Below, piece after piece: positions 1 to 27,090 of a stretch of 64,000 nt of DNA. The stretch is from Acidobacteriota bacterium (GTDB lineage: Bacteria > Acidobacteriota > Terriglobia > Terriglobales > Acidobacteriaceae). Position 1 is the stretch's first letter. The number at the start of each line of letters is the position of its first letter. The stretch lies in NCBI GenBank assembly GCA_003225005.1, contig QIAN01000065.1, forward strand, positions 124,001 through 188,000, read 5' to 3'. The translations under genes and the position numbers were made by a program. The notes beneath the pieces were generated by a model, which had not been told where the DNA came from, did no database searches, and was given only the letters and a program-made list of their open reading frames with translations.

Positions 1-1025
1 TCGACCGTCGCCTCGGTGGGACCGTAGAGATTCGTCAGCCGCGCCCCAATCCTGTTTGTCACGATATTGTTGAACTTTTTAACGTGACTAGGCGTCAGGG
101 CTTCACCACTGACGAATACTCGTCGAACCGATGCCAGACCTTCCAGAACGCGATCATCCTTGCCATCCAGATATTCGAGGAACACGTTCAGCATGGACGG
201 AACGAAGTGCAGAACGGTGACGCGGTGCTTCCTGATGGCTTCGATAATGGCCAGTGGACTTCCTTCGCCTCCTGGCATCAGGAAGCAAAGTTTTGCCCCC
301 TCGAGCGCCCACCAGAAAAGCTCCCACACCGAAACGTCGAAGTAATAGGGGGTCTTCTGCAGGATGACATCGTTTCCCTCGATCGGATAGGCGTGTTGCA
401 TCCAGTGCAGGCGATTCACCACGGAGCGATGCTCAATCATGACTCCCTTCGGTTTGCCGGTCGAGCCGGAGGTATACATCAGGTAGGCGAGATCTCGCGC
501 CTGATTGACGATGATCGGATTTTCCTTCGGCCCCAGATAAATTCCGGGATCATCCATATTGACGATCGTTCCATCGAAGGGTGTTCTGCCGGCCGTCTTG
601 GTGTGCACGATCAGTACTCTGACCTCTGCATCCTTCAGCATGTAGTTGGTGCGGGCCGGCGGATTATCGGGCGATAAAGGCAGATAAGCGGCTCCGGCCT
701 TAATGATTCCCAGGATGCCAATCATCATGGCGAAGGATCGTTCCACCATCAGGGCAACGACGTGTCCGGGTCCGATACCCGTGGCTCTCAAAGAGCGCGC
801 GAGTTGGTTGGCCTTTTCATTGAGCTCCATACAAGAAAGTGAGGGCACGCCGCCGGCCTTGGCGTGGTCACAGATCACAGCCGTCGCGGAGGCACAGTCG
901 ACAAACTGTGCTTCGATCAATTCCTGAAGAGTGGCGTGATCGGGGAAAGGCGCCTCTGTGCGATTGAATTCAGCGATCTTCTCGAGGTCTGCTTGGCTGG
1001 CGGTACGTAGGGCAGGAGACTCCAT
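1..1025 (-). CDS. NRPS adenylation domain, predicted serine-activating (partial, runs off left edge)
   Basis: Reading frame opens at an ATG (1023-1025, minus) and stays open to the window edge (341 codons). The product starts about 20 residues before the linker that normally follows a condensation domain, so it enters the A domain directly with no C domain: either a loading module or a stand-alone A protein. Core motifs visible are YMYTSGSTGKPKGV-like A3, the A4 region FDVSVWE and NLYGPTEAT. Signature residues read by eye at the ten binding-pocket positions are D-V-W-H-F-S-L-V-(D/E)-(K not seen), which matches the serine code of EntF (DVWHFSLVDK). It lies 17 bp after the acyl-CoA dehydrogenase and so is probably in the same transcript. 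In zwittermicin-type pathways a serine A domain of this kind charges a free carrier protein for aminomalonyl-ACP; a normal NRPS loading module is the alternative. What follows the A domain is not visible. Confidence 0.9.
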   Translation of the reverse strand, partial: MESPALRTASQADLEKIAEFNRTEAPFPDHATLQELIEAQFVDCASATAVICDHAKAGGVPSLSCMELNEKANQLARSLRATGIGPGHVVALMVERSFAMMIGILGIIKAGAAYLPLSPDNPPARTNYMLKDAEVRVLIVHTKTAGRTPFDGTIVNMDDPGIYLGPKENPIIVNQARDLAYLMYTSGSTGKPKGVMIEHRSVVNRLHWMQHAYPIEGNDVILQKTPYYFDVSVWELFWWALEGAKLCFLMPGGEGSPLAIIEAIRKHRVTVLHFVPSMLNVFLEYLDGKDDRVLEGLASVRRVFVSGEALTPSHVKKFNNIVTNRIGARLTNLYGPTEATV

Positions 1026-1042: not shown

Positions 1043-2194
1043 TTATTGTAGCGACCGGCGCACCTGTCCGAGAAATATCCCTCCGAGAAGGTGCTCATGG
1101 ATCTGGGTGGTGCCTTCAATGATCTCCATGATCTTGGCGTCACGATAGAAGCGCGAAACCGACGAAGATGCGTGACATCCAGCGGCTCCCTGGATCTGAA
1201 CTGCATCCGAGGCCGCCCTGACGGCGGCTCTGGAGGTGAAATACTTGGCCATCAGGGCTTTTTCAAACGCTTCCGGGAGATTTTCATCTGCCGCCCGGCA
1301 GGCGCTGTGGCAGAGGAAGCTGCCGGCCTCTAAGTCGGTGCCCATTTCGGCGATCAAGGAACGGATCATTCCGATGTCTCCCAAGGGCTGATTCCCTATC
1401 TTTCGCGTGGCCGCCCAGGTGACACTCTCTTCAAAACATCCCCGCAAAAGCCCTAAAGCCGAGCACGCGGTGCTGATCCTCCCGTAGTGCAGACCAACCG
1501 GCGCGATGTGCGACAGAGCAAAGCCAGGTTTGCCGACTACATTTGCGGGGGGAACTTCGACATTATTGAAAGTAAGCTTCGCCAGACCGGCGGCACGGAA
1601 TCCCATCAGATCATGAATGGGTTCCACCTCGAGACCGGGAGTTTCCCGCGGCACCAAACACGCCAGCGAGCGGTCTCCCAGTTTTCCAAACACCAGAAAT
1701 AACGATGCAAACTGGCCACAGCTGATCCATTTTTTGGCGCCGTTCAGAACCAGAGAGTCACCGCGCGAGTCGGTGAATTCGGTCACCAGGGAATGGATAT
1801 CACTTCCCCCACCGGGCTCGGTCAAGGCAAAAGCGCCGATAATCTCGCCTTGGGCAAGCATCGGAATCCATTTCCGTATCTGCTCCACACTTCCCCACTT
1901 CAGCAGAGCCTTGGAAACCATGGTCTGGACGGTCAGCACGCCGTTCAATGAGGAGGACCCTCTTCCCAAAGCTTCATTCAGCAAGCCGAAGGTGACCGTG
2001 TCCCATCCGTGTCCTCCATTCTGGGTCGGAAGGCTGCAGCCTAAATAACCCAGTTTCGCCAGCAGCGCGATTACGGACTCGGGAAGTCGCTGCTCCCGAT
2101 CCCATTTCTCGGCAAACGGCTCGACGTTCTGGTTCACGAATGTTTTGAAATCCCCGTGCCTGGCTTTCTGCTGTTCGGTCAATAAATATTGCAT
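1043..2194 (-). CDS. Acyl-CoA dehydrogenase family protein of the FkbI/ZmaE/ZmaI type
   Basis: A 383-residue flavoprotein with the full acyl-CoA dehydrogenase layout: helical N domain (about 1-110), beta middle domain with the FAD/substrate stretch ALTEPGGGSD near 130, and C-terminal helical domain ending in RDAKIMEIIEGTTQI, which carries the usual catalytic Glu before G-T. In methoxymalonyl-, hydroxymalonyl- and aminomalonyl-ACP pathways such an enzyme oxidises the carrier-bound aldehyde to the acid. Here it sits beside a free carrier protein, a 3-hydroxyacyl-CoA dehydrogenase and an FkbH protein, which is the diagnostic set. That context, not the sequence alone, is why the extender-unit role is preferred over beta-oxidation. 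The gap to the carrier-protein gene upstream is 91 bp. Confidence 0.88.
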   Translation of the reverse strand: MQYLLTEQQKARHGDFKTFVNQNVEPFAEKWDREQRLPESVIALLAKLGYLGCSLPTQNGGHGWDTVTFGLLNEALGRGSSSLNGVLTVQTMVSKALLKWGSVEQIRKWIPMLAQGEIIGAFALTEPGGGSDIHSLVTEFTDSRGDSLVLNGAKKWISCGQFASLFLVFGKLGDRSLACLVPRETPGLEVEPIHDLMGFRAAGLAKLTFNNVEVPPANVVGKPGFALSHIAPVGLHYGRISTACSALGLLRGCFEESVTWAATRKIGNQPLGDIGMIRSLIAEMGTDLEAGSFLCHSACRAADENLPEAFEKALMAKYFTSRAAVRAASDAVQIQGAAGCHASSSVSRFYRDAKIMEIIEGTTQIHEHLLGGIFLGQVRRSLQ

Positions 2195-2285: not shown

Positions 2286-2576
2286 CTATGAAGGCCCAGC
2301 CTCAGCCTTTTGCCAGCCCTTTTTTCTCATGACAAACGCCGTAGTCGCGTTAACGGATTTGAAATTTTCGATGTCCAGATCGTCCATGCCTAGTTCGATG
2401 ACGAAGATCTTTTCGAGGAACGTCATCAACTGAACCGCGAATAGGGAATTCACGATACCCGATGCAAAAAGATTATCGTCGTCGTTCAGATTCGCAATAT
2501 TGATCGAGCTCAGCAGAAAGTTGGTAACGGTTTCCCTTACCTTCTTTTCCTCTTCTGCATGCGAGGAATTGGTCAA
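2286..2576 (-). CDS. Free-standing acyl carrier protein (FkbJ/ZmaD/ZmaH-like)
   Basis: A 96-residue acidic helical protein. The phosphopantetheine site is GIVNSLFAVQL near residues 40-50: the usual D-S-L has become N-S-L, with Ser kept as the attachment residue. The following helix (MTFLEKIFVIEL) and the ENFKSV segment match free carrier proteins dedicated to unusual extender units. It sits between the two dehydrogenase genes, so it most likely carries the glyceryl or seryl group while those enzymes oxidise it. The PPTase gene encoded at 16995-17747 could activate it. Which of the two routes (glyceryl via FkbH, or seryl via the A domain at the left edge) loads it cannot be decided from sequence. 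Confidence 0.88.
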   Translation of the reverse strand: MTNSSHAEEEKKVRETVTNFLLSSINIANLNDDDNLFASGIVNSLFAVQLMTFLEKIFVIELGMDDLDIENFKSVNATTAFVMRKKGWQKAEAGPS

Positions 2577-2639
2577 CAGGTTTCCCTCCAGAAATAGGCA
2601 ACATCGAACGGTCCGAACGGAGGAATCGGGATCGGTCCA

Positions 2640-3500
2640 TCAGCCGGCAAAATAAGTATAGAAGCCCCGTCCAGTTTTGCGCCCTAAATGCCCGGCATGA
2701 ACCATCTTTCTAAGCAGCGGACAACAACGGTACTTCGGGTCCTTGTAACTTTCAAAAAGAACGTCGAGAGAATGCACGACCGTGTCCAATCCGATCAGAT
2801 CGGCGGTCTCCAGAGGACCCATCGCATGTCCGAAGCACTTTTTGAAAATCATGTCGATCTTCTCCGCCGTCGAGACATGGTCCTGCAGGACAAACGCGGC
2901 CTCGTTCATGAACAAGTGAGAGATGCGGTTGGAAACAAAGCCCGGCATGTCCTCGACTAGGATTGCTTCCTTGTTCAGTTGGGAGAGCAATTGCAGCAAT
3001 CGACTGAGTGCCAGGTCAGAGGTATGGAATCCCCGGATCACCTCGACGGCTGGTTTCAGATGGACCGGATTCATGAAGTGAACCCCGATCACATTCGCGG
3101 GACGCCCGGAGGCGTTGCCTATTTGCGTAATGGAAATGCACGAGGTATTGGCTCCAAAACAGACTTCGGGCGGCGCCAGTTCCCCCAACCTTTCGTAGAG
3201 GGGCTTTTTAATTCCCCAATCCTCGGTAACGTTCTCGATAATGAAGTCGCAGGAAGTCAGATCCTGCAGATCGGTCGTCAGGGTTATCCGCTGCAAGGCC
3301 TCATCCCGGCTGGCTCGCGGCAGTGTTTTTGATAACACAGGAGCGAACCGTATGTTGTTCAAAATCTCGGCTTGAGCGCGTTCCAGAATGTCTGTTGTGA
3401 GGTCAACGACAACCGCTGAGATGCCATGAAGCACAAGGTCGGTGACGACGCCAACCCCGATGTTCCCCGCGCCCAGAACCCCTACTGTTCCCAAGATCAT
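2640..3500 (-). CDS. 3-hydroxyacyl-CoA dehydrogenase family protein (FkbK/ZmaG-like)
   Basis: A 286-residue NAD(P)-dependent dehydrogenase. The N-terminal Rossmann fold carries GVLGAGNIGVGV at 8-19, followed by an acidic VVDLT strand end. The catalytic His is in GVHFMNPVHLKP, and the C-terminal helical domain (KIDMIFKKCFGHAMGPLETADLIGLD) is typical of the 3-hydroxybutyryl-CoA dehydrogenase family. Its start overlaps the end of the upstream fusion gene by 4 bp (ATGA), which indicates translational coupling. In ACP-bound extender-unit pathways this enzyme oxidises the primary hydroxyl of glyceryl- or seryl-ACP to the aldehyde, and the next dehydrogenase finishes the oxidation. In zwittermicin a single such enzyme serves both the hydroxy- and aminomalonyl routes. 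Confidence 0.9.
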   Translation of the reverse strand: MILGTVGVLGAGNIGVGVVTDLVLHGISAVVVDLTTDILERAQAEILNNIRFAPVLSKTLPRASRDEALQRITLTTDLQDLTSCDFIIENVTEDWGIKKPLYERLGELAPPEVCFGANTSCISITQIGNASGRPANVIGVHFMNPVHLKPAVEVIRGFHTSDLALSRLLQLLSQLNKEAILVEDMPGFVSNRISHLFMNEAAFVLQDHVSTAEKIDMIFKKCFGHAMGPLETADLIGLDTVVHSLDVLFESYKDPKYRCCPLLRKMVHAGHLGRKTGRGFYTYFAG

Positions 3501-6500
3501 TGCCTCGTCCGTCTCATAGCCCTGGATCGCCTTTGCTGGCCACGCACAGCAGCCCCACTTGTGCTGGGCTCGCTAGAAGGGCTTCTGCCGGTTGCGCCCA
3601 ATCTGGCAGCCAGAAGGGTTACAGTCGGACACTCGAAGAGACTGACGATCGACAGGTTTTGATGCAGTTGCTTCCGGATCATGGTTATCACCTGGACCGC
3701 CTTCAGGGAAGTTCCGCCCACCTCAAAAAAATTGACGTTCAGTCCGATTCCTGCCCGACCCAGGACCTTTCTCCATATATTTACGATCGTGGTTTCAATA
3801 CTGTCAGATGGCTCTGGTTCCGCCACGCCCTCAAGACCTTGTGTGCGGAGCCGGAACTCATCGATCGCTTTTCGAACCCGGCTGACGTCGTACAATTCTT
3901 CCCCAATCCGTTGCAGGTGCTCCGATCGGGCAGTCATGCCAAATCCTGATGCCGGTGTTGGCTTCTCCACAGGGGGAGTTGCCGGCTTGTCGTTCGATTG
4001 TCGAGTCTTTTCGTCCGCATCGTATTGGAGACTCGCCAAGTATTCCGCGGGAAACAGCCACGACGCACCTGCCTCACTTCGGTACTGATCGCCCAGGCTG
4101 CTGACGAAGTCCCTGGCAGGCAAATTTCTTTCCGTCGGCAGGCAGCTCAGTTCCACAAACCTCTTCCCTGCACGTAGCGCCCTCTGGCCAATGCTGGACA
4201 GCACCCTGTGTTCCACCCCTCTGCCCAAGACCCGGCAGCTCAGTAGAAAGGTGTCGAGCTTGAACCGAACGGCTTCGGCCTCGTACAAAACGACACCGAC
4301 AAGACCATAGTCTCCGAATCGATCAGCCACCCGAACCGCCAGGCATCCAGTGTCTTCCCGCTTCAAAAACTCTCTGATTTCGCTGGGCGAGCGCCGGATA
4401 GTGGTGAAGTTGAATTGATTGGTTCGAAAGGTCAATTGCGAGACACGGCTGAGCTGATCCTCAGTTGCTTCATCAATTTCGACCCGAACCATAAGGCCTA
4501 GGACAAAGTCATTCAGGGAAGGGGTCTGCGCACGGAAGCGCTCTCTTTGCGCGTTATCCTGATACATCCTGACGCGGCTTCGATCTTCTTCGGTCGTTCC
4601 GGTCTGATCGAAAGCCCAGATATGCTCGAAAAACGAGGCAAATGATGCAGGGTCTCGCGGCAACCGCAGAGTCAACACTTCGGGACAGTTGATCTCCACA
4701 TCCGCGCAATCCACAGGATTGTCATCGATGAAGATAAAACTGTCCAACCCAAGATTCAGCTCGCTGGCGAGAGATTTGATGTTCTCAGACTTGCTGCTCC
4801 AGTTGATCCGCCATGAAGCCAGATGCTCGCGTCGCAGGAGCATATCAGCTCGCTGATCGAATACGTTCAGCACATCCTGTTCGCTGTTCTTGCTCGAGAG
4901 GCACAGCAGCATTCCAGAATTCATCTGATCAACCATGAACTGCTGCAGAGCGCGGTGAGCCTCGGTGACTGCGACTCCCTGCGAACCCTCTTCGCCACAT
5001 ACGCCTTTCCAAACAGTGTTATCACAGTCCAGCACAATGACTTTGAAGGGCTTTCGCTTCAGGTTGAAGATGGTTCGAAACAGGGCGGTGCCGATGGCGG
5101 CGAAGCACTCCGGTGTGTAAGGAATATCCCCCAACTGATGGCTATGAATGTCGTAATACTCGGCGACTGGGTAGCGCCGCAACAGGGCCTCCGAACCGAT
5201 GGTGGAAACGCCCGCCCAAGTACTCGTCCGTAAGAGCAATTCCCGCTCGGCGTCAACGATCGCCGCCTTCAGTTCCGCATTGGCTTCGGCGGCAGGGCTC
5301 GCCGGACAGACACAGAGGACAAGAGGCGCCGACGTCTGGCTTGTGAAGGACTGCAGCGCGGCGCAGAAATCCCGGACATTGCGTTGCAGGCTGCCGGTCA
5401 GCCACGGCACTTGCCCGGGAGCAGCGGTGGTTTCGAAGCGCTCGGAATCCGAGCCCAGCCGGTCGCCGGTCGCATCACGGGTTGCGAACAGGTTGAATAA
5501 TCCGGAATGCTCCAGCAGTTTTTGCTGTTCGATCGCGCATCGGTATCCTTTCCGGATCAGCAGGTCGTTGATCCCACGAACCGCATCGCCGGTGCCGTGG
5601 ATCTCGATGACGATCTGATCGATCTTCGGCCAGTCGCAATCCGCGATGCCTCGGATGATTTCGAGTTCGCTTTTTTCAGCATCAATTTTGAGTAGATCGA
5701 TCCGCTCGATCTGATTTTCGCGGATGATGTCCGACACGGTTGTCAGGCGGCACTCGTGCGTACTGCGGCGAAGCCTGTCTCTGGTAAGCTCATGCACATA
5801 TTCCTGCACGGATTCGTCGGCCACCGATTCAGCCTTGAGCATGTTGCGAACAACGGCCCGGATAGCCTTGCCGTCCTCGGCCTCATCGGAATGAAAGCTG
5901 GAGAAGACAGAGGAATTCTCATAAAAGGTGAAGGTCGCGGTGCCCTGCCTGTCCGAGACGCCGAAATTAAAGGCTTGAGCACAAGAGCCGTAGGCGGCGC
6001 AGTTCGCCTTCAGGAGGTCATACGCGACCGGGGCGGGCTCGAAGGCGTAGATTCTCGGGTTCCGGCAGCGGCTCATCACAAAAAGGGAAAACAGGCCGAT
6101 GTTGGCCCCAATGTCCACCACTGTGGCTCCCTCGGGCAGTCGTATATCGTGCTTTAGGTAGCATTCATCCTCAAAAATCTCCTCGTACAAGTAGTCGGTT
6201 TCATACTGGTTTAAATGGACGATCTCGAGGCCGTTCGGCAGAATGCATCTCTTGCGCTTCCCGAAGCACCGCTCCGCTCTTGTTTTGTCGAAATCCGGGG
6301 CCGCGTCTCGTTCGGCAGCAGCCCACCTCTCCAATTGCAGCAGGATTATGCTAACCCCGGCCTGGTTCCTGCGAAACGCGCTGTCCGCCTGCAGCAACTG
6401 CTGAAAAACCTGATCGTAAGGTGCAAATGCGATGTTGCTCTGAAGGCTGAAATGCGCCGCCCAGAACTTCAGGGAATCCTCGACCGGCTCAGCGGTAAAG

Positions 6501-7444
6501 TTGGAGGCGACCACAAACATCGGCCCCCTGTTTTCTTCGGGCGCCTCCAGGCGGTCCAGCAGGATAAAGGCGACTCCCCAGAGTTCGAGGTATGTCTTGC
6601 CCGATGGATCGAAGACCCGAATATCGCCAACCAGGCGATTGTTCTCTCCCTCATCCTGCGGCAGCAACCTGCCATGGCACCACAGCGGGTTGGGAAAATT
6701 GAGGTCTGCTATCTCGATACGTTCAATCGACTGCAGTATGAAAGTCCTGCCCCGCGCCATCATGAAGGACGCCAGCAATTGTGTCATCGAATCCAGCAGA
6801 GTGGAGCGCAGACTATGGGGCTCGTTTTCCGCACGCGCCGAGGAAAGCCTCCCCAGAGACTGATTGCCCGCCCGCCAAATCGAGGACACACATTGAAATC
6901 GGGGCCCGTACTGGTTGCCGTTGCTACGAAGCTCTTGGTAAAAACGCTCCGAATCGATTACGTCATCTGCCAGCGCCTGAAAGGCTTCGATTGAAAATGA
7001 TTCGTCGACCAACTCTTGGAGGGCGGATGGACTGCGATCCACTTCCAGCCTGGCAGCATACTGGTGGCGGATGGAAGCGCCTCCATTTCCGACAGCGCCT
7101 TCGTAGAAGGTGTATTCAGCAGTGGTGGCGCCCCTGTTCCGGACCTCCACTCTTATGATCGTGTCCTCCGGCGAAAGCATGACTGGGTTCTGAAAGGTCA
7201 CGTTTCGCACGACAGCCGGGGCGCGTTTAGAAAGCTCCTGATGAACAGACAGCGCCATTTCGATGTAGAACGAACCGGGTAGCACGACCACGTCCTGAAA
7301 CGCGTGATCGGCCAGAAACGGCAGGGAACGGAGGCCGATTCTGAACTCCGCGGAGGCCTCCAGCGACGGATCGGGCACGAAGGTGAAAAGACGAGTCATG
7401 TCAGCTGCCAGTTCAGCAGTCGACTGGGGATCGAAGCCGGGCAA
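3497..7444 (-). CDS. Multidomain fusion: PKS-type dehydratase, FkbH (HAD-IIIC) with inserted FkbM methyltransferase, C-terminal carrier domain
   Basis: 1315 residues. (a) About 20-298: double-hotdog PKS dehydratase with catalytic His47 in HAFQDVVVLP (Asp51 where Gly is usual) and Asp218 in LLDSMTQ, so both catalytic residues are present. (b) About 308-374: the N-terminal segment of long FkbH proteins, recognisable by FTAEPVEDSLKFW and APYDQVFQQLL. (c) About 375-660: FkbM-family methyltransferase, with NGLEIVHLNQYETD and the SAM loop VVDIGANIGLFS at 442-453. (d) About 680-1140: FkbH resumes, with CVCPASP, HAD motif DCDNT at 806-810 and a GNAT-like C-terminal part. (e) About 1210-1285: carrier domain with FFEVGGTSL, Ser1246. 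FkbH domains take the glyceryl group of 1,3-bisphosphoglycerate and load it on a carrier; the methyltransferase probably O-methylates it. The annotated start is TTG with AAGGGA upstream; ATG at 7399 is an alternative. Overlaps the next gene by 4 bp. Confidence 0.88.
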   Translation of the reverse strand: MPGFDPQSTAELAADMTRLFTFVPDPSLEASAEFRIGLRSLPFLADHAFQDVVVLPGSFYIEMALSVHQELSKRAPAVVRNVTFQNPVMLSPEDTIIRVEVRNRGATTAEYTFYEGAVGNGGASIRHQYAARLEVDRSPSALQELVDESFSIEAFQALADDVIDSERFYQELRSNGNQYGPRFQCVSSIWRAGNQSLGRLSSARAENEPHSLRSTLLDSMTQLLASFMMARGRTFILQSIERIEIADLNFPNPLWCHGRLLPQDEGENNRLVGDIRVFDPSGKTYLELWGVAFILLDRLEAPEENRGPMFVVASNFTAEPVEDSLKFWAAHFSLQSNIAFAPYDQVFQQLLQADSAFRRNQAGVSIILLQLERWAAAERDAAPDFDKTRAERCFGKRKRCILPNGLEIVHLNQYETDYLYEEIFEDECYLKHDIRLPEGATVVDIGANIGLFSLFVMSRCRNPRIYAFEPAPVAYDLLKANCAAYGSCAQAFNFGVSDRQGTATFTFYENSSVFSSFHSDEAEDGKAIRAVVRNMLKAESVADESVQEYVHELTRDRLRRSTHECRLTTVSDIIRENQIERIDLLKIDAEKSELEIIRGIADCDWPKIDQIVIEIHGTGDAVRGINDLLIRKGYRCAIEQQKLLEHSGLFNLFATRDATGDRLGSDSERFETTAAPGQVPWLTGSLQRNVRDFCAALQSFTSQTSAPLVLCVCPASPAAEANAELKAAIVDAERELLLRTSTWAGVSTIGSEALLRRYPVAEYYDIHSHQLGDIPYTPECFAAIGTALFRTIFNLKRKPFKVIVLDCDNTVWKGVCGEEGSQGVAVTEAHRALQQFMVDQMNSGMLLCLSSKNSEQDVLNVFDQRADMLLRREHLASWRINWSSKSENIKSLASELNLGLDSFIFIDDNPVDCADVEINCPEVLTLRLPRDPASFASFFEHIWAFDQTGTTEEDRSRVRMYQDNAQRERFRAQTPSLNDFVLGLMVRVEIDEATEDQLSRVSQLTFRTNQFNFTTIRRSPSEIREFLKREDTGCLAVRVADRFGDYGLVGVVLYEAEAVRFKLDTFLLSCRVLGRGVEHRVLSSIGQRALRAGKRFVELSCLPTERNLPARDFVSSLGDQYRSEAGASWLFPAEYLASLQYDADEKTRQSNDKPATPPVEKPTPASGFGMTARSEHLQRIGEELYDVSRVRKAIDEFRLRTQGLEGVAEPEPSDSIETTIVNIWRKVLGRAGIGLNVNFFEVGGTSLKAVQVITMIRKQLHQNLSIVSLFECPTVTLLAARLGATGRSPSSEPSTSGAAVRGQQRRSRAMRRTRQ

Positions 7445-7460
7445 TCAGGATCAGATCCCT

Positions 7461-7772
7461 TCATGGAGAGCCATCCTTCGTTCTGGCAAAAAGCGGCTGG
7501 TCTGCTACTGCTGGATCAGCGGAATTGCCGAAGTCGCTTAGGTGGTTTTCGTTCGCAAGCGAATGGTCGAGGTGCAGTACTTGCGAACTTCCATCACCGA
7601 TCAGCAAGGCGAGGAATTCGGCGAACTTAGGATTTTCTGGAAGATGGGGGGAATCATTCACCCCGGGAGGCCCGGAGCTAAAAAGCTCTGCAGTTGAAGC
7701 CCGAACCACGCGCTCCGGAAATTCTAGCGCGATTGTCACGCCACCTTGGGTTCTAAGCCGAATGCTTTTCAT
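7461..7772 (-). CDS. Small ORF of unknown function between the glycine NRPS and the FkbH fusion
   Basis: A 103-residue frame starting at an ATG (7770-7772) that lies inside the last codons of the glycine NRPS gene, overlapping it by 20 bp, and ending 16 bp before the FkbH-fusion start. It neatly fills an otherwise empty gap in a tight operon, and its codon use looks coding. The product is mildly acidic with a segment PENPKFAEFLALLIGDGS followed by Q-V-L-H-L-D; I see no known domain, signal peptide or membrane helix. No strong Shine-Dalgarno precedes the ATG, so expression would depend on coupling to the NRPS. It could be a cluster-specific accessory or interaction protein, or chance coding. 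Confidence 0.42.
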   Translation of the reverse strand: MKSIRLRTQGGVTIALEFPERVVRASTAELFSSGPPGVNDSPHLPENPKFAEFLALLIGDGSSQVLHLDHSLANENHLSDFGNSADPAVADQPLFARTKDGSP

Positions 7773-10700
7773 CGAGCACACTCTTCAGCAGGTTCTCAGC
7801 TTCATCCGGTGATAACTTATCAAGCTGGGACAAAATAGCTTCTCGGCTGGCGCCAGGAGGCACAGAACCAGCACGCCGCCGTGCGAACAGGCTGCGCCCC
7901 TTCAGGCCGAGCGCTTGAGCCCTTTGTAGTTCGTCCGCCAAGGCGGCAACCGTCGGTTCTTCAAACAGTCGTCGCACCGGTAGCTCCAGATCGAAAATGT
8001 GACGGATGCGGGCCATTACTTGCATTGCCAGCAGTGAGTGTCCGCCAAGCTCAAAGAAGTTGTCTTGCCGTCCGACCCTCTCCACTTTCAGCACGTCCGC
8101 CCAAATCTCCACCAGCCGCCTCTCAATCTCCCCTTTCGGCGCTTCATACCCCCGCTCCGCGCGCGCATCACCTGCCGGCATCGGCAAGGCCTTGCTGTCG
8201 AGCTTCCCGTTCGCGGTCAAGGGCATCCGATGCATCCGCACGTATGCGGTAGGTACCATGTAGTCGGGCAACTGGCTCGACAAATGAGAACGCAACTCCC
8301 CGGCTTCAATACTCGGTCCGTTTGCATCGCAGGCCGTGTAGTAGGCCACAAGCCGCTTCTCCCCTGTCACGTCCTCCCGCGCGGCTACCACCGCTTCCCG
8401 CACCCCTGAATGGCCCATAAGTGCAGCTTCAATCTCTCCCAACTCGATGCGAAACCCCCGAATCTTTACCTGATCGTCAACCCGACCTAGATACTCGATA
8501 TTTCCATCCGGCCCGAAGCGACCGAGATCGCCAGTCTTGTACAGCCGCGCCGACTGGCTCGGTGCCAGCGGATTGGCCACGAATCGCTCCGCCGTCAACT
8601 CCGCTCGGTTCAGGTACCCGCGTGCCACCCCGTCGCCGCCGATATAGATCTCTCCTACAATATTGGCGGGCACAGGATTCAAATGAGGATCCAGGATGTA
8701 AATTTGTGTGTTCGCAATCGGCCGACCGATAGGTATGCCGTTCTCTTCCCGGCCAGTGACGCGGCGCAACGAGGACCAGATTGTGGTTTCGGTCGGGCCA
8801 TACATGTTCCAGACCGAGCCACTCCGTTTCACCAACTCCCTAGCCAGCTCGGGCGGCAGGGCTTCGCCTCCGCACAGAATTTTAAGATCCCCCGATCCTT
8901 GCCATCCCGCTTCCATAAGCAGCCGCCAGGTCACCGGCGTCGCTTGCATGACGGTCGCTTTGCTGTCGAGCAACAATTCAAGCAGCCTGGTTCCGTCCAC
9001 CGCGGTTTCTAAACCCGCTATCACCAAACGCGCCCCCGAGATCAGCGGCAGGTAGATCTCAAGACCGGCGATATCGAAGGATAATGTGGTCACCGCCAAG
9101 AGCACGTCTTCCCGACTCAGACCCGGCTCCCGTTGCATAGAACAGAGAAAGTTCACTACGCTCCGGTGCTCGATCGGTACCCCTTTCGGTCTTCCCGTCG
9201 ATCCGGATGTATACATCACATACGCCAGAGTGTGAGGATCGGCGCCTTTGCCCGGATTGGCTTTACTCTCCCTCGCAATCCGATCCCGATCCGTGTCGAT
9301 TAAAACCTTTCGTGCGCGGGGAAACTTATCCTGCCATCGCTGTTGTGTCAGCACCACAGGCGGATTCACATCAGAGAGCATGAAGGTCAGGCGCCCTTCC
9401 GGAAGTCGCGAATCCAGTGGGACGTAGGCTCCGCCTGCTTTCAAAATACCGAGCAGACCGACCACCATTTCCCATCCCCGGTCCATACATATGCCCACAG
9501 GCACATCCGGACCAACTCCCTGCTGACGCAAATACCACGCCACCTGGTTTGCCCGCTCGTTCAATTCCCGATAGGAGAGTTGCGAATCTTCGCATTCGAC
9601 CGCGATGGCGTCCGGCGATCGATCGACCTGCAACTCAAACAGTTCATGAATGCACGCCTGCGGATAGGAACAATCGGTCCGGTTCCACTCCGTCAAGATT
9701 TGATTAGTCTCATCCAGAGTCAAAACTGGTAACTCGGAAAGCGACTGCACAGGGCTGTCGATGGCCCCTTCCAGCAATCTCTGCCAATGATTCGCCATGG
9801 CAGCGATCATTGCAGAACTAAACAAGTCAGTGCTGTAGTGAAATCGAGCCAAGACCTCGGCGGACCGCTCACCCAGTTCCAGATATAGGTCGTACTTCGA
9901 AGTTCCCGTATCAACATCCATCTGGGTGAGGCGCCAGGCGGGATCGATTTCCGGCAGAGGCGGATCGAGCGAAAACATCGCCTGGAACAATGGATTGCGC
10001 CCGGGATTGCGTCGAACTTTCAGCTCCTTGACCAGATGCTCAAAGGGCAAACCATCGTGCTCGAGCACGTCAAGGGTGAGATTTCGGAACCTGTGCACCA
10101 ATGTTCGAAAGCTTGGATTCCCTGATACGTCGGAAGGAAAAACCACCGTATTGAGAAAGTACCCGAGCAGTGCCTCTGTTTCCGGCCGATCGCGGCCCGC
10201 AGTGATGCTACCGATCGGAATTACTTCCTCTCCTGAATAGCGATACAGCAAGGCGGCAAAGGCCGCGAACAACACGTGAAACAACGACACGTCTTCCGTG
10301 CGGCAAAATGCTCCTAATTTCGAGGTTAAGCTCTGGCTCAACCTGAACGGGTACATCGAACCACGAAAGGTCAGCGCTGTTTTCTGTGTCCGGTCTACCG
10401 GCAAGTAAGAGTCGGGCAAATTGCGGCTCAGCTGCTTGCTCCAAAATTCAACATCTTTCGCTAGAGCTTCCGTCGTCATGGTCTGACGCTGCCAGCATGC
10501 GAAGTCCGGATACTGAATGACCGGCTCTGGCAAGGGTGAGGGCTTACCCGCCTCATACGCCTTGTAGAGGGTGGCCAGTTCCGGAAGAAACACACGATAA
10601 AACCCCACGCCATCGAAGATGATGTGGCTAAGAGTCAAGTACAGCCGATATTCCTCGTTGTCTACGCGGATGAGTCTTGCCCAAAACAGCGGAACCCGAC

Positions 10701-11139
10701 CTAGATCAATTGGCCTCCGAGCATCCTCGGTGGCGATGGCCAACGCCGCTGCATTGCGCTCCGCATGAGGGATGTTCCGAAGATCCAAAACGGGCAATGA
10801 AATCGAAAGATTCGGAACTACTTTTTGCGTAGCTTGACCGTCCACGACCGAGAAGAGAGTTCGCCAAGCTTCATGACGGCGCAGAATCTCGTTGAAGCTT
10901 TGCTCGAGGGCCGCAACGTTCAGCGCGCCGGAATAGTGGATGGTGACCGGCTCGTTGTAGAGAGGAAAATCACCCGCGAGCTGAGCATGCAACCACACCT
11001 GCTCTTGAGCGTAGGAGAGAGGTATTGTTTGACCTGGCTCGCGCGGCGGAATCGCCTGAGTCGACGGGCGAAGTCCCAACTCGCCGCGAAGACGCCGCTC
11101 AAGCAGATGCTTTTTTGCCTCGGAGTGCTGCTCGGCCAT
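7753..11139 (-). CDS. NRPS, C-A-T module predicted to activate glycine
   Basis: 1128 residues from the ATG at 11137-11139. This start is chosen because GAGG lies 6 nt upstream; the frame stays open 19 codons further. C domain about 38-475, with the active-site motif as SHIIFDG (first His of HHxxxDG replaced by Ser, second His and DG kept). A domain about 495-980 with YVMYTSGSTGRPKGV, YGPTETTIW and the LYKTGDLGRF hinge region. T domain about 1020-1085, FFELGGHSL. Pocket residues read by eye are D-I-L-Q-L-G-M-I-W-K, one change from the glycine code DILQLGLIWK. After the T domain comes a tail of about 50 residues, nearly the same as in the next NRPS (REAILSQLD..LS), that may be a docking element. 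No epimerase, methyltransferase or thioesterase. Downstream partner is presumably the FkbH fusion. Confidence 0.93.
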   Translation of the reverse strand: MAEQHSEAKKHLLERRLRGELGLRPSTQAIPPREPGQTIPLSYAQEQVWLHAQLAGDFPLYNEPVTIHYSGALNVAALEQSFNEILRRHEAWRTLFSVVDGQATQKVVPNLSISLPVLDLRNIPHAERNAAALAIATEDARRPIDLGRVPLFWARLIRVDNEEYRLYLTLSHIIFDGVGFYRVFLPELATLYKAYEAGKPSPLPEPVIQYPDFACWQRQTMTTEALAKDVEFWSKQLSRNLPDSYLPVDRTQKTALTFRGSMYPFRLSQSLTSKLGAFCRTEDVSLFHVLFAAFAALLYRYSGEEVIPIGSITAGRDRPETEALLGYFLNTVVFPSDVSGNPSFRTLVHRFRNLTLDVLEHDGLPFEHLVKELKVRRNPGRNPLFQAMFSLDPPLPEIDPAWRLTQMDVDTGTSKYDLYLELGERSAEVLARFHYSTDLFSSAMIAAMANHWQRLLEGAIDSPVQSLSELPVLTLDETNQILTEWNRTDCSYPQACIHELFELQVDRSPDAIAVECEDSQLSYRELNERANQVAWYLRQQGVGPDVPVGICMDRGWEMVVGLLGILKAGGAYVPLDSRLPEGRLTFMLSDVNPPVVLTQQRWQDKFPRARKVLIDTDRDRIARESKANPGKGADPHTLAYVMYTSGSTGRPKGVPIEHRSVVNFLCSMQREPGLSREDVLLAVTTLSFDIAGLEIYLPLISGARLVIAGLETAVDGTRLLELLLDSKATVMQATPVTWRLLMEAGWQGSGDLKILCGGEALPPELARELVKRSGSVWNMYGPTETTIWSSLRRVTGREENGIPIGRPIANTQIYILDPHLNPVPANIVGEIYIGGDGVARGYLNRAELTAERFVANPLAPSQSARLYKTGDLGRFGPDGNIEYLGRVDDQVKIRGFRIELGEIEAALMGHSGVREAVVAAREDVTGEKRLVAYYTACDANGPSIEAGELRSHLSSQLPDYMVPTAYVRMHRMPLTANGKLDSKALPMPAGDARAERGYEAPKGEIERRLVEIWADVLKVERVGRQDNFFELGGHSLLAMQVMARIRHIFDLELPVRRLFEEPTVAALADELQRAQALGLKGRSLFARRRAGSVPPGASREAILSQLDKLSPDEAENLLKSVLDEKHSA

Positions 11140-11413
11140 GCTGTCCTCAACACCTGAGGGGGTTATATTCTCCCACCGGACGGTGCGGGCAACCAACCAA
11201 AATAACTGTCCATCCCCTCGATCCGATGGTACCCAAGTTCGCGGCCTGTCGGGAAGTCAAAATCGAAATTCACAGGTGCCCAAAGTTAAAATCCAAACTA
11301 AAATAAAGAGCCGCCAAACGGCCAAATCAAACCGTCTGGCCGAAACATTCCGCCCTCGAAATACACAATCACGCGCACACAAAAAAATACGTTCCGCGCC
11401 TACAGTTGTTCCG

Positions 11414-14400
11414 CTACGCGGGCTGCTTGCCATCGATCATACTGTTTAACAAACTTTGTAATTCGGCGGCCGACAGATTATCGAGCTGCGACAAGATAGC
11501 TTCTCGACTGGCGCCCGTGTTTGCGGAAGCGGCATGGCGAGGCACAATCGGGGTAGGTGCCTTCAGTCCTAACGCTTGCGCCTTTTCCAGTTCAACCGCC
11601 AAACCTTCAATCGTCGGTTCTTCAAACACGCTCCGTACTGGAAGCTCAACCTGGAAAATGCGACCAATACGGGCAATCATCTGCAACACCAGCAGAGAGT
11701 GCCCTCCCAGCTCAAAAAAATTCTGATCGATTCCTACCTGATCCACTGCCAACAGTTCCCGCCAGATTTCGGCCAGCCTGCTCTCTGCCTCATTGCGCGG
11801 CGGTACCAGTTCTTGCCCGTCCCTGATTGGCACTCCCACCCCCGGCGAGAGCGCTTTGCGATCGATCTTGCCACTGGGGAGGGTAGGTAGCTTAGGGAGT
11901 CGGCAGTAACTGGCAGGAACCATGTGTTCAGGAAGCTTAGACCGGAGAAGACGCCCCAACTCTCCGGCCATCGGGCATTTTCCGTCACGTGGGACCAGGT
12001 ACGCTCGAAGCATCTGCTGCCCTCCCTCCTCATGCAACGTAACCACGGCTTCCCTGATCTCATCATGCGAGGCTAGAATCGTCTCGATTTCGCCCAGTTC
12101 GATGCGCATTCCCCGCAATTTGACCTGGCCATCCACACGGCCCAGATACTCGATGTCGCCATTGGCCCGGAAGCGTCCCAGGTCGCCGGTCTTGTACAGC
12201 CGCGCCGATTGCGCAGGTGCCAAGCGGTTAGGCACAAATCGTTCTTGCGATAACTCCGGCCGATTGCAATATCCAAGCGCCAATCCGTCTCCGCCCACCA
12301 AAATCTGCCCGCGAACCCCAATGGGTACGGGATTGGAATATTCATCCACCAAGTACACTTGCGTGTTGCTGATGGGCTTGCCGATGGCAACCAAACCAGC
12401 CGTCTGGTCTGCCTCACACACGAGATGACAAGTTACATCTGCCCCCACCTCGGAGGAGCCGTAAATGTTCAGCAAGGTCGCTTCCGGGAACGCAGCCAGA
12501 AAGCGCTTGGCTAACTCCGCCGATAATACCTCTCCACTGCTCGACCAAAGCTTCATTCGCGGAATTCTCTGCGCCAGGTTTGGACTATGGTCCAACAAGC
12601 TTCGCAAAAGCGAGGGCACCAGCACGATGCGCGTGACTTCTTCGTGCGCCAGCGTCCGCAACAGTTCCTCGGGATCCTGCACAACCTCCGGCGGAATGAT
12701 CACGTTGGGAACACCTGCCAGCAGTGGACCGAAGATCTCCCAAACCGAGTCCACAAAGCCCAAATTCGTTTTCTGGCAGCACACTTCCCCGGGCTGGAAC
12801 GGATAGGTTTGCCACATCCAGGCAAAACGATTGACGGCGCCCCGATGGGTTCCCTCTACCCCTTTCGGGCTGCCGCTCGATCCCGAGGTGTAAATCACGT
12901 AAGCAGGTTGATCATTCGATTGCGCCGAGGAGGGAGTGCTGGCTGACTCGCCTCTGATAAGTTCTCTCTCTCTGTCGATATCGACGAAACTCGAACCTTC
13001 GCTTGAGAATTCTCTCCCGCTCCCCGAAATAACACAGCCCACTCCAGCATCTCGCAGCATAAATTCGAGCCGTTGGACTGGATAAGAAGGATCAAGCGGC
13101 ACATAAGCAGCTCCAGCTTTGAGTACGCCCAGGAGGGCCACTACCATTTCCGGAGAGCGCGCGACCGAGACACCCACGAGCCCGCCGCGTCGCACGCCTT
13201 TCTTAATCAGGTAGTGGGCCAGGCGATTCGCATCCGCGTCGATCTGCCCGTAGCTGAATTCCTTGCCTTGGAACAACAGTGCCGTCGCATCAGGAGTCCG
13301 CTCGGCTTGCAACTCAAACAGTTCATGAATGCACGCCTGCGGATAGGAACAATCGGTCCGGTTCCATTCCTTTACGATTCGCTGCCGTTCCTGGGCGCTC
13401 ATCAGCGGTATCCGCGCCAGTGGCAGGTCCGGATTCCTGATCACGGCACTCACCAGATTCCGGAAGTGACCGAGCATCCTGCGAATCGTCTGCTTGTCAA
13501 ACAGGTCGGTGTTGTATTCGAACTGCCAGATAAACTCCTCGGTCTCGAATACTTCGACCGCCAGATCGAGCTTCGCGATTCCGGTCTCGAATCCCAGTTC
13601 CTCCATGGCCAGCCCGGCAATCTCAAATACTTGCTTGGGCACGTTCTGGAATGTGAACAGCACCTGGAACAGTGGACTGGTATCTACCAGACGCTGCGGA
13701 ACCAGCTCTTCCACCAGCTTCTCAAAGGGAAGGTCCTGGTGCATGTAGGCTTCGAGAGCAGAGGCGCGCACTTGACGAACCAAATCGCGGAAGCTGAGGT
13801 CTTCGCTAAAGTCAGCCCTGAACACCAGGGTATTCACGAACAACCCAATCACATTTTCAATTTCCAATTCGTTGCGGGCTGCAACCGGCGTGCCCACCAG
13901 AATGCTCTCTTGCATGGTGTAGCGCCGCAGCAGCGCCTGAAATGCGGCCAGGGCAACCATGAACAGCGTCCCGCCTTCGTTCTTCGCCAAGCCCTTCAGT
14001 TCTGCCAAAACGTTGCCGTCAAATCTCAGCTCTTCATTGGCCCCGTGCCAACTGTGGCCCGTTGGACGGGGGCGATCCGTGGGTAAATCAAGTATGGTTT
14101 GGGCACCCGCTAATTTGCCCTTCCAGTAATCAATTTGCTTTTCCAGCATCTCCCCGCTCATGTATTCGCGCTGCAATTGTGCGTATTCGGCATACTGCAA
14201 GGGAAGGGACGGAAGATTCACTTCCTCACCCCGGCTGAAAGCCTCGTAGCAGCGCGTCACTTCGCGGAAAAGCACAGCGATCGACCAGCCGTCGGTGACG
14301 ATGTGATGCATCACCAGAATCAGTAGGTGTTGCTTCGGACCCAGCCGCACCAGAACCGCTCGCAGCAAAGGTCCCCGCGTCAAATCAAAGGTTTTTTTGC

Positions 14401-14755
14401 CTTCTTCACTGGCAATGCGCAACGCTTGCTTCTCGCGGTCATGCTGGGGAATATCGGTCAGATCCACAACCGGGATCTGTACCTCCATATCCGACAACAC
14501 AATCTGTCTGGCTTCGCCGTCTACGGAATCAAAAACCGTGCGCAGCGATTCGTGACGTCGCACGATCGCCTCGAAGGCACGCGTCAGGACAGGGATGTCC
14601 AAAGGGCCCGTGACCCGAAAGGCGCGCGCCAGGTTGTAGGCGGCTGTTCCCGGCTCGAGCTGATCGAGAAACCAGAGTCTTCGCTGACCGAACGACGCCG
14701 GATAGGCTGTTTGGCTCACTGGCATTCCTTCCATTTTAAGCATCTTACGGGCCAA
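11414..14755 (-). CDS. NRPS, C-A-T module predicted to activate beta-alanine
   Basis: 1113 residues. C domain about 15-460 with intact HHIVTDG at 150-156; A domain about 480-965 with YVIYTSGSSGSPKGV, LYKTGDLGRF and GRVDGQVKLRG; T domain about 995-1062 with FFELGGHSL; then a C-terminal tail like that of the glycine NRPS. The A4 segment reads FVDSVWEIF, so the first pocket position is Val and not the Asp that grips alpha-amino groups. The code by eye is V-D-W-V-S-S-I-A-D-K, close to the beta-alanine code VDWVISLADK, and YGSSEV replaces YGPTE as is usual for that group. The longest frame starts at TTG (14753-14755); ATGs at 14743, 14734 and 14725 are equally possible. 217 bp separate its stop from the longest frame of the next NRPS. 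Its C domain needs an upstream donor, and the only NRPS sequence upstream is a decayed remnant. Confidence 0.93.
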   Translation of the reverse strand: MARKMLKMEGMPVSQTAYPASFGQRRLWFLDQLEPGTAAYNLARAFRVTGPLDIPVLTRAFEAIVRRHESLRTVFDSVDGEARQIVLSDMEVQIPVVDLTDIPQHDREKQALRIASEEGKKTFDLTRGPLLRAVLVRLGPKQHLLILVMHHIVTDGWSIAVLFREVTRCYEAFSRGEEVNLPSLPLQYAEYAQLQREYMSGEMLEKQIDYWKGKLAGAQTILDLPTDRPRPTGHSWHGANEELRFDGNVLAELKGLAKNEGGTLFMVALAAFQALLRRYTMQESILVGTPVAARNELEIENVIGLFVNTLVFRADFSEDLSFRDLVRQVRASALEAYMHQDLPFEKLVEELVPQRLVDTSPLFQVLFTFQNVPKQVFEIAGLAMEELGFETGIAKLDLAVEVFETEEFIWQFEYNTDLFDKQTIRRMLGHFRNLVSAVIRNPDLPLARIPLMSAQERQRIVKEWNRTDCSYPQACIHELFELQAERTPDATALLFQGKEFSYGQIDADANRLAHYLIKKGVRRGGLVGVSVARSPEMVVALLGVLKAGAAYVPLDPSYPVQRLEFMLRDAGVGCVISGSGREFSSEGSSFVDIDRERELIRGESASTPSSAQSNDQPAYVIYTSGSSGSPKGVEGTHRGAVNRFAWMWQTYPFQPGEVCCQKTNLGFVDSVWEIFGPLLAGVPNVIIPPEVVQDPEELLRTLAHEEVTRIVLVPSLLRSLLDHSPNLAQRIPRMKLWSSSGEVLSAELAKRFLAAFPEATLLNIYGSSEVGADVTCHLVCEADQTAGLVAIGKPISNTQVYLVDEYSNPVPIGVRGQILVGGDGLALGYCNRPELSQERFVPNRLAPAQSARLYKTGDLGRFRANGDIEYLGRVDGQVKLRGMRIELGEIETILASHDEIREAVVTLHEEGGQQMLRAYLVPRDGKCPMAGELGRLLRSKLPEHMVPASYCRLPKLPTLPSGKIDRKALSPGVGVPIRDGQELVPPRNEAESRLAEIWRELLAVDQVGIDQNFFELGGHSLLVLQMIARIGRIFQVELPVRSVFEEPTIEGLAVELEKAQALGLKAPTPIVPRHAASANTGASREAILSQLDNLSAAELQSLLNSMIDGKQPA

Positions 14756-16721: not shown

Positions 16722-16994
16722 TGACATCCTCCTGAGGCAGGGCGTGGTTTCAGCCTTGGGCTGCGAAGCCATCTGCAAAATCTTGGTGAAATTCCGACCT
16801 CGACGAAGTGGAGCGCCTTAAAGGATGGTCCGATTTTACAGTTGTGAAAGGAAATGAAAAGACACGGTGGTACAACTAAAGCGGTGTCCCTGGGGCTAGT
16901 TACCAGGAGTGTCTATCGGCCCCGGATGGAAGTTCGGGGTGCTTCGAAAACCGCTGAATAACCGAACTGTTTGCCAGGAGCAGCACGTGGGCCG

Positions 16995-17747
16995 TCAGGC
17001 ACGGGGTTGCGTGGTTGGAACATTGCCCACGGTTAGGGCTGCGGCGTATCCCTGTCCAACAGAAAGGTCGTACAAGGTCCATCGTCCGGCTTCGGTGGGG
17101 TCTGGTCTGGTCCCGACCAACGCTGCCGGTTGATCCTCCTCGAGCGACACGTCGAAAGCGTGCAAGGGGATGGATAGGCCTTCGCCCTTCGCCTTGATGT
17201 AGGCTTCTTTACGGGTCCAGCAACGAAAAAACGCTCGTTGCAACTCGTCACCTGAAAGTTTTCCGAGAAAGAGTTGTTCCCGCGCTGAGAAAAACCGCTT
17301 GGCCAATTTTTGTGCGTCAGGTTGGGGACGGATCTTTTCCGCGTCAACACCGATCTCTCGCTCCCTTACCAGCGCCAATACAGCCAAGCCTTCGGTGTGT
17401 GAAACGTTGAATCGCAGATCGGGGGGACCATTCTTCAAAGCCGGCTTTCCCTGGGCGGAATAATCAAATGACAGACTTTCCGGCGACTGTGCCGTATACG
17501 ACGCAAGCACAATGCGCAGGACCGCACGGGTCAAAATGAATTCGTTCCGGTGCTGGTCAAAACGGTAGCGTTCGGCTCGCTCCATTTCGTCCGGCGAGAG
17601 CACTTTCTTTAAGTCTGCAACTTCCAGCGCGGAAACATCCAGCGGCCAGTGCCAGATTCGCGCCACACCTGCTGGAATGTTTGGAGCCGAGCGGTCTCCC
17701 GCGAAACCATCCCACTTATGAATCTCAATGTGCAAGTCGGGGGTCAT
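16995..17747 (-). CDS. 4'-phosphopantetheinyl transferase, Sfp type
   Basis: 250 residues. Core motifs of the Sfp superfamily are present: NVSHTEGLAV near 110, IGVDAEKI near 130 (Mg-binding Asp/Glu) and FFRCWTRKEAYIKAKGEGL near 170-190 (WxxKEAxxK). It transfers phosphopantetheine from CoA to carrier-domain serines, and is the natural activator for the T domains and free ACP of the neighbouring cluster. It is first in the minus-strand direction, upstream of the lipoprotein and NRPS genes. 273 bp separate its stop from the lipoprotein start, so they need not share a promoter. No strong Shine-Dalgarno is visible before the ATG. Confidence 0.93.
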   Translation of the reverse strand: MTPDLHIEIHKWDGFAGDRSAPNIPAGVARIWHWPLDVSALEVADLKKVLSPDEMERAERYRFDQHRNEFILTRAVLRIVLASYTAQSPESLSFDYSAQGKPALKNGPPDLRFNVSHTEGLAVLALVREREIGVDAEKIRPQPDAQKLAKRFFSAREQLFLGKLSGDELQRAFFRCWTRKEAYIKAKGEGLSIPLHAFDVSLEEDQPAALVGTRPDPTEAGRWTLYDLSVGQGYAAALTVGNVPTTQPRA

Positions 17748-25706: not shown

Positions 25707-25709
25707 GAA

Positions 25710-27086: not shown

Positions 27087-27090
27087 CCGG

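Follow-up and report, generated by a model that had tools for sequence, protein, structure and literature searches.

An FkbM methyltransferase nested inside FkbH in an acidobacterial protein, and its possible role as a one-protein loader of a 2-methoxyacryloyl starter

Introduction

What would a single protein make if it carries a dehydratase (DH), an FkbH glyceryl loader that is interrupted by an FkbM-type methyltransferase, and a peptidyl carrier protein (PCP)? Such a protein is encoded on a stretch of 64,000 nucleotides (the window) from an Acidobacteriota bacterium (assembly GCA_003225005.1, contig QIAN01000065.1, positions 124,001 to 188,000 of the forward strand). A preliminary description of this DNA proposed that FkbM is inserted inside FkbH and that a glyceryl unit could be loaded onto the protein's carrier, methylated and dehydrated there. 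The insertion is confirmed here, and the nested layout probably yields an uncommon starter unit of a natural product. The proposed load-methylate-dehydrate mechanism gains support here and is plausible, and its dehydration step is one that we infer.

FkbM as an insertion within FkbH

Pfam and NCBIfam searches of the 1315-residue protein identify PKS_DH_N at residues 33-114, PS-DH at 162-299, Methyltransf_21 at 444-636, TIGR01686 at 801-1120 and PP-binding at 1219-1282. Both DH models exceed their cut-offs. The FkbH match (TIGR01686) scores 290 bits against a cut-off of 146.65, and the FkbM part scores 62 bits against 22.7 with Methyltransf_21 and 93.5 against 37.7 with fkbM_fam. Alignment and motif reading show that the catalytic residues are retained, including DCDNT (the HAD DxD) and LLSCRVLG (with the acyltransferase Cys) in FkbH, the S-adenosylmethionine (SAM) motif in FkbM and, as had been stated from the start, His47 and Asp218 of the DH. 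No sulfotransferase is found in the protein by Pfam.

The FkbH models that match, such as TIGR01686, stop short of the N-terminal block (N-block) of the FkbH N-domain. Therefore, this block was tested on its own, with a profile derived from 10 FkbH sequences that lack FkbM. The profile of uninterrupted FkbH matches the window protein at residues 310-375 with an independent E-value (iE) of 4.5e-25, and the remainder of the FkbH N-domain restarts at ~686. The N-block lies directly ahead of FkbM in 18 of the 24 fusions tested, the window included, and is weak in one (L049, iE 0.021), while the five Streptomyces-type fusions give no significant match; the contig-end fragments L044, L051 and L083 are not among the 24. 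The gap between the FkbH halves is bimodal, with 3-34 residues in 15 rows without FkbM, 290-317 residues in 18 rows with FkbM and none between. This count takes in only rows where both halves were detected, with the window itself as the query, and three pairs of rows (L022/L164, L039/L162 and L045/L135) each seem to be one genome drawn twice.

An AlphaFold2 model of residues 300-1130 has a mean pLDDT of 82 and a pTM of 0.44, values which indicate that the domain folds are good but that their mutual placement is less sure. The crystal structure of BF1531 (3slr), an uninterrupted FkbH_N plus HAD protein, aligns to the model with a Z-score of 30.1 and a root-mean-square deviation (rmsd) of 5.0 over 341 of 376 residues. 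From its first to its last aligned residue this alignment spans model positions 7-651, or window residues 306-950, and thus runs across the insert. The insert itself matches the FkbM structure 2py6 (Z 15.1, rmsd 2.1), in a comparison that covered mostly methyltransferases and hardly any other folds. Since 3slr fits on both sides of the insert, both flanks would form one FkbH N-domain plus HAD, and residues 308-374 and 680-800 appear in the model to make up one domain surrounding the insert. Neither the model nor the 3slr alignment shows these two stretches failing to pack on each other, an outcome that the preliminary description had named as contrary evidence. The profile, the spacing and the structure alignment all bear out FkbM as a genuine insertion within FkbH, and they rule out a plain tandem FkbM-FkbH without insertion.

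Distribution and evolution of the nested loaders

The nested architecture is widespread but sparse. In one scan of a genome collection, the best 80 of 318 related loci were kept. The 18 strong fusions come from seven phyla: Acidobacteriota (the window and L039), Verrucomicrobiota, Cyanobacteriota, Ignavibacteriota, Thermodesulfobacteriota, Actinomycetota and Bacteroidota. This recurrence, which extends to DysB/AerB-like loaders and to Leptolyngbya PCC 7375, rules out that the architecture is unique; comparison of domain architectures shows a nested order that is real and recurrent, and not the ordinary tandem arrangement.

A full-length match was found in 1 of 396 evenly drawn genomes of the window's own phylum, namely the window's genome (any match in 12), and in 1 of 297 genomes of a second draw, from the phylum of the acidobacterial locus L039, namely that of L039 (any match in 20). 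In a cyanobacterial draw, 4 of 386 genomes have a full-length match, one being L045's own (any match in 32). These frequencies are lower bounds; few candidates were scored per genome. Among the matches listed for 61 genomes (the window's own and 60 relatives), only that of the window spans both domains in one piece. A literature search limited to open-licence papers turned up no title or abstract opening that describes FkbM nested inside FkbH.

In a tree of the FkbH parts (41 rows, without L044), the fusions require 5 changes and a single clade is rejected by the approximately unbiased (AU) test (p 0.001). L023, an FkbH without FkbM, adjoins the window group with support of 99/91. In the FkbM tree (67 rows, without L051 and without two thirds of the FkbH-less FkbM rows from loci above L070), 15 fusions and L037 form one group (99/95) and the five Streptomyces-type fusions are placed elsewhere. 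These two results speak against one origin of all fusions. As far as such trees indicate, repeated insertion, loss and domain exchange are not distinguishable in this sample.

The Streptomyces-type fusions (L030-L033 and L095, from Streptomyces, Kitasatospora and Embleya) are nonribosomal peptide synthetase (NRPS) starter proteins in which FkbM is followed by a diverged FkbH and a PCP. In L030, the one scanned of the five, a condensation (C) domain follows, and ~350 residues ahead of FkbM have no Pfam match. A first alignment had suggested the same insertion in this group, but none of the five gives a significant N-block match with the FkbH_N profile, and they are therefore not counted as nested.

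Two other loci have layouts of their own. On a Burkholderia ubonensis plasmid, the open frame L037:4551-6788 holds an apparent relic of the FkbH N-block (by eye), FkbM, a short FkbH-like stretch and then an isochorismatase; a HAD or acyltransferase part was not matched there, and its FkbM clusters with those of L043 and L045-L047. In Aquimarina (L052), two FkbH proteins adjoin each other (2529-6245 and 6261-11510), one without and one with a nested FkbM, and the second has a C domain ahead and a thioesterase at its end.

Loaders with and without a dehydratase

The nested core occurs with and without a DH. The catalytic His and Asp are kept in the alignment of all 15 DH-bearing proteins, a count that takes in the window protein as well as L051 and L083, both fragments at contig ends, and leaves out L041, whose open frame starts within the DH. 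Three complete cyanobacterial proteins of ~2860 residues (L172-L174) begin with the FkbH N-block and have FkbM nested at the same place. They further carry a sulfotransferase, two carrier stretches, two condensation-type stretches and an adenylation (A) domain, and no DH is found in them by Pfam. In L172, the first carrier (920-983) comes after FkbH and precedes the sulfotransferase. Both versions occur together in a single Symploca genome (G454), as L042 (with DH) and L174 (without).

The published systems referred to here and below are given as in excerpts of PMC8609519, PMC10143770, PMC13122637, PMC7600079, PMC7930024, PMC8262917, PMC4768178, PMC6164871, PMC6395733, PMC3795760, PMC8880653, PMC6520454 and PMC4207774. 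In these excerpts, DysB is an octadomain protein composed of a methyltransferase (MT), FkbH, two PCPs, a sulfotransferase (ST), C, A and epimerization (E) domains, and the AerB/SuoB loading modules are described as O-methyltransferase (OMT), FkbH, PCP and ST. DysB and SuoB have been proposed to make sulfated (O-methyl) glycerate, and the product, 2-O-methyl-3-sulfoglycerate, keeps the C3 oxygen. Because those pathways yield this product, the C3 oxygen stays when there is no DH. The DH-free DysB/AerB-like proteins serve as a natural control for the role of the DH.

We propose that the fusion protein acts as a self-contained starter-unit synthase and loader. Its FkbH part, with the HAD and the acyltransferase Cys, would draw D-glycerate from 1,3-bisphosphoglycerate and attach it to the PCP of the same protein as a glyceryl thioester. 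The nested FkbM would then O-methylate the C2 hydroxyl, and the N-terminal DH would eliminate the C3 hydroxyl to give 2-methoxyacryloyl-PCP (methyl-enolpyruvyl). A glyceryl thioester is a beta-hydroxyacyl thioester and as such a normal substrate of a DH. The finished starter would be handed to a neighbouring ketosynthase-acyltransferase-ketoreductase-acyl carrier protein (KS-AT-KR-ACP) module or to an NRPS condensation domain.

We regard this route, from a glyceryl unit on the own PCP through C2 O-methylation to a dehydrated 2-methoxyacryloyl starter, as rather likely; the order of the steps, the DH substrate, the product and the fate of the product are what we infer. Every part that the preliminary description needed for loading, methylation and dehydration on the own carrier is present, and dehydration of the glyceryl unit itself would be the presumed step. 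Its suggestion of a product other than plain methoxymalonyl is favoured by the comparison of DH-bearing and DH-free relatives, with gene context pointing to glyceryl as the probable DH substrate.

Neighbouring genes and the serine cassette

The features of the window are collected in Table 1. The fusion gene and the downstream 3-hydroxyacyl-CoA dehydrogenase (3HADH) gene share 4 bases, at the stop of the former and the start of the latter. Then follow the genes for a free-standing ACP, an acyl-CoA dehydrogenase (ACAD) and a lone A domain, and past the latter, outside the window, that for a KS-AT-KR-ACP protein (C432:118517-123226).

Table 1. Features of the fusion gene and its surroundings, with positions in the window.
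Feature	Position	Strand	Basis and remarks
DH-FkbH(N)-FkbM-FkbH(C)-PCP protein	3497..7444	minus	1315 aa, TTG start (start codon uncertain)
PKS-type dehydratase, residues 33-299, His47 and Asp218 kept	6548..7348	minus	Pfam PKS_DH_N and PS-DH; alignment
N-terminal block of FkbH N-domain, residues ~308-374	6323..6523	minus	uninterrupted-FkbH profile (310-375, iE 4.5e-25); structure alignment
Inserted FkbM O-methyltransferase, residues ~376-685 (Pfam core 444-636), SAM motif VVDIGANIG	5390..6319	minus	Pfam/NCBIfam, structure alignment, profile
Second half of FkbH N-domain, residues ~686-800	5045..5389	minus	homology to uninterrupted FkbH; structure alignment
FkbH HAD-IIIC phosphatase part, motif DCDNT, residues 801-940	4625..5044	minus	TIGR01686/TIGR01681
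FkbH acyltransferase (GNAT-like) part, Cys in LLSCRVLG, residues 941-1125	4070..4624	minus	TIGR01686
PCP, carrier serine in GGTSL, residues 1219-1282	3599..3790	minus	Pfam PP-binding
3-Hydroxyacyl-CoA dehydrogenase type protein (FkbK/ZmaG-like)	2640..3500	minus	Pfam
Free-standing ACP, 96 aa, motif GIVNSL, absent from the preliminary description	2286..2576	minus	open reading frame; Pfam PP-binding 21.2 bits, cut-off 20.8
Acyl-CoA dehydrogenase (FkbI/ZmaI-like)	1043..2194	minus	Pfam; PDB and plasmid matches
Lone adenylation domain, 543 aa, extends beyond window to C432:123394, serine-type pocket	1..1025	minus	pocket D V W H F S L V D
NRPS module C-A-PCP	7753..11196	minus	Pfam
NRPS module C-A-PCP	11414..14755	minus	Pfam
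4'-Phosphopantetheinyl transferase, could activate carriers	16995..17747	minus	Pfam

The gene neighbourhood is conserved. In both L039 and L044, the fusion is accompanied by homologues (67-78% identity) of the 3HADH, ACP, ACAD, lone A domain and KS-AT-KR-ACP protein, and in L038 the same homologues are present except the 3HADH. The free ACP homologues in these three loci are 67-75% identical. L044 enters the counts of cassettes and of A domains, and it comes from the same isolate as the fusion fragment L051, on another contig. No homologues of the 3HADH, ACP or ACAD are found at E 1e-5 in 13 other fusion loci (L040-L043, L045-L050, L052, L083 and L103), within flanks of at most ~8 kb, several of them short. 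Because the cassette homologues lie beside only a few fusions, the fusion seems not to depend on them.

The pocket of the lone A domain is the same in 4 of 4 cassette clusters (window, L038, L039 and L044). Located by motif and numbered by the usual scheme for A-domain pockets, it equals the serine code of enterobactin synthetase at the nine of ten positions read (the tenth being Lys). A proline-to-pyrrole reading of the trio of ACP, ACAD and lone A domain is set aside on this serine code. The aminomalonyl-ACP subcluster of zwittermicin, as described in the excerpts, consists of a seryl-activating A domain, a 3HADH, an ACP and an ACAD. Judged by pocket and gene content, the four genes here most likely form a separate cassette for aminomalonyl-ACP, and such a cassette is more likely than one for methoxymalonyl-ACP. 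The FkbH of the fusion would therefore be free to serve its own PCP.

The alternative is that the protein is a fused FkbG/FkbH for ordinary methoxymalonyl-ACP, in which the glyceryl unit, carried by the free ACP or else by the fused PCP, is methylated by FkbM and oxidized by the 3HADH and ACAD to an extender for the KS-AT-KR-ACP module, the DH being unrelated. Its components (FkbH, an O-methyltransferase, 3HADH, free ACP and ACAD) do stand together in the window. Plasmid FkbH cassettes also show the order 3HADH-ACP-ACAD in 7 of 7 annotated neighbourhoods of relatives of the ACAD, an eighth neighbourhood carrying no annotation; however, in all seven a separate FkbH gene occupies the place that the serine-type A domain takes in the window. 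The ACAD itself is closer to FkbI (1r2j, 162 bits) than to prolyl-ACP dehydrogenase (4irn, 132 bits), with 16 other distinct sequences above FkbI. On the other hand, the AT of the cluster has GHSMG and HAFH as in malonyl-CoA ATs and not the GYS motif of the two ACP-linked-extender ATs that the excerpt of PMC4207774 tabulates, neither of them for methoxymalonyl. A mixed third motif (I-S-R where RXR would stand) makes this assignment less than clear-cut. All three AT domains detected in the genome are of the GHS type. A 3HADH homologue was not found in L038, and the 13 loci above have fusions without any of the three cassette genes in the flanks covered. Taken together, we consider a methoxymalonyl product unlikely.

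Further genes surround the cluster. A Methyltransf_24 protein lies beside the cassette in L038 (L038:10871-11641) and a 77% identical one in L039 (L039:6442-7164), whereas neither the window nor L044 yielded a homologue. In the window, a BPL_N glutamine-amidotransferase-like protein (Pfam) is located at 15861-16778, between the NRPS genes and the phosphopantetheinyl transferase. An RND efflux set at 22482-28536 (AcrB-like pump, membrane-fusion protein and outer-membrane protein) lies near the cluster and is possibly its exporter.

Role of the dehydratase

The DH may instead work in trans after chain extension. In this scheme, a 2-O-methylglyceryl unit delivered by the loader is extended on the KS-AT-KR-ACP module to a beta-hydroxyacyl chain, from which the loader-fused DH then removes water. 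This is possible because the next polyketide synthase (PKS) module has a KR and no DH by Pfam in the window, L040, L042 and L050, and the HxxxGxxxxP motif is found in 0 of these 4. However, the same fused DH, with His and Asp intact, is present in three loci where no KR was seen beside the loader in the genes examined. In the L049 loader the PCP is followed by a C domain, and a scan of 7 of its ten flanking proteins reveals neither a PKS nor a KR. The two PKS proteins next to the L048 loader are KS-AT-ACP without KR, and in L045 a KS and two enoyl-CoA hydratase (ECH) domains come before the first KR. The DH is also fused to the loader and its PCP, and not to the extension module. Since the DHs of L049, L048 and L045 have no obvious ketoreduced substrate, the starter itself would be the simplest substrate, and dehydration in trans seems improbable. 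A catalytically idle, structural DH, with 2-O-methylglyceryl-PCP as the product as in DysB/AerB, would agree with the shared nested FkbH(FkbM) core and with a motif that deviates from the usual one, but is very unlikely in view of the His and Asp kept in 15 of 15 proteins despite a DH identity to the window that drops to ~21% (BLAST).

Several observations weigh against a 2-methoxyacryloyl starter. The usual motif of PKS DHs is HxxxG, and that of the window DH is HxxxD. The PKS module downstream is without a DH of its own in the four loci named above, and the window, L039 and L044 contain every part of a methoxymalonyl-ACP cassette. The FkbH parts of the fusions are not one clade, and their function therefore need not be shared by descent. 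In favour of such a starter, a C2-methylated glyceryl unit that loses its C3 oxygen would become a methoxyvinyl group like that of phormidolide, whose own methoxyvinyl end would likewise derive from glycerate.

Implications

A wider, more tentative reading is that a portable one-protein 2-methoxyacryloyl synthase, marked by the nested methyltransferase and the DH ahead of it, has spread between distant phyla and operates here alongside aminomalonyl-ACP formation, the presence of the DH switching between methoxyvinyl and methoxyglyceryl starters; this is possible, though we hold it with some doubt. If it is correct, the nested FkbH(FkbM) core would be a signature of 2-O-methylglycerate starters, and a fused DH would predict whether the C3 oxygen is lost or retained. 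Genome miners could then infer the starter in clusters labelled 'FkbM family methyltransferase' or 'HAD-IIIC phosphatase'. A reactive methoxyvinyl thioester would become available from one protein, and the cluster would point to a pathway of Acidobacteriota and Verrucomicrobiota that is as yet uncharacterised and includes an unusual extender cassette.

Comparison with known systems

The window shares FkbH, an O-methyltransferase, 3HADH, a free ACP and an ACAD with methoxymalonyl-ACP cassettes (FkbG-K type; HliH-K and HliQ in haliangicin). It differs from them in that FkbH and the O-methyltransferase are nested and joined to a DH and a PCP, in the extra serine A domain and in an AT without the tabulated GYS motif. 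In zwittermicin aminomalonyl-ACP biosynthesis (ZmaG/H/I/J), the 3HADH, ACP, ACAD and seryl A domain stand in a row as in the window, a likeness in make-up. A ZmaF-like trans-AT (GYSLG) is not among the three AT domains found here, all GHS, in an assembly of 550 contigs where one could be missed.

The phormidolide and leptolyngbyalide trans-AT PKSs provide a second comparison. In the published excerpts, the phormidolide PKS has FkbH-like, O-methyltransferase and DH domains, its product terminates in a bromomethoxydiene, and Leptolyngbya sp. PCC 7375 has a related leptolyngbyalide (lept) PKS. L045, a candidate counterpart of these loaders, comes from this strain and has the order DH-FkbH(FkbM)-carrier as in the window, with the DH dyad intact and ~40% identity to the window protein. 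Its loader is fused to a PKS (an open reading frame of >3500 residues, in which the KS and two ECH domains follow), and, unlike the window, the locus has no 3HADH, ACP or ACAD homologue in the flanks covered.

The DysB/AerB/SuoB proteins of the aeruginosin family (dysinosin, varlaxin and suomilide) are represented here by L172-L174, likened to them by domain content and length. An FkbH with a nested FkbM, followed by a PCP, is common to the window and L172-L174. The DysB type has a sulfotransferase, no DH and one long NRPS, and keeps the C3 oxygen, whereas the window has a DH, no sulfotransferase and a separate loader. The architecture belongs to this existing group of glycerate loaders, and the new points are the evidence of nesting, the comparison of loaders with and without DH, and an acidobacterial cluster with a serine cassette.

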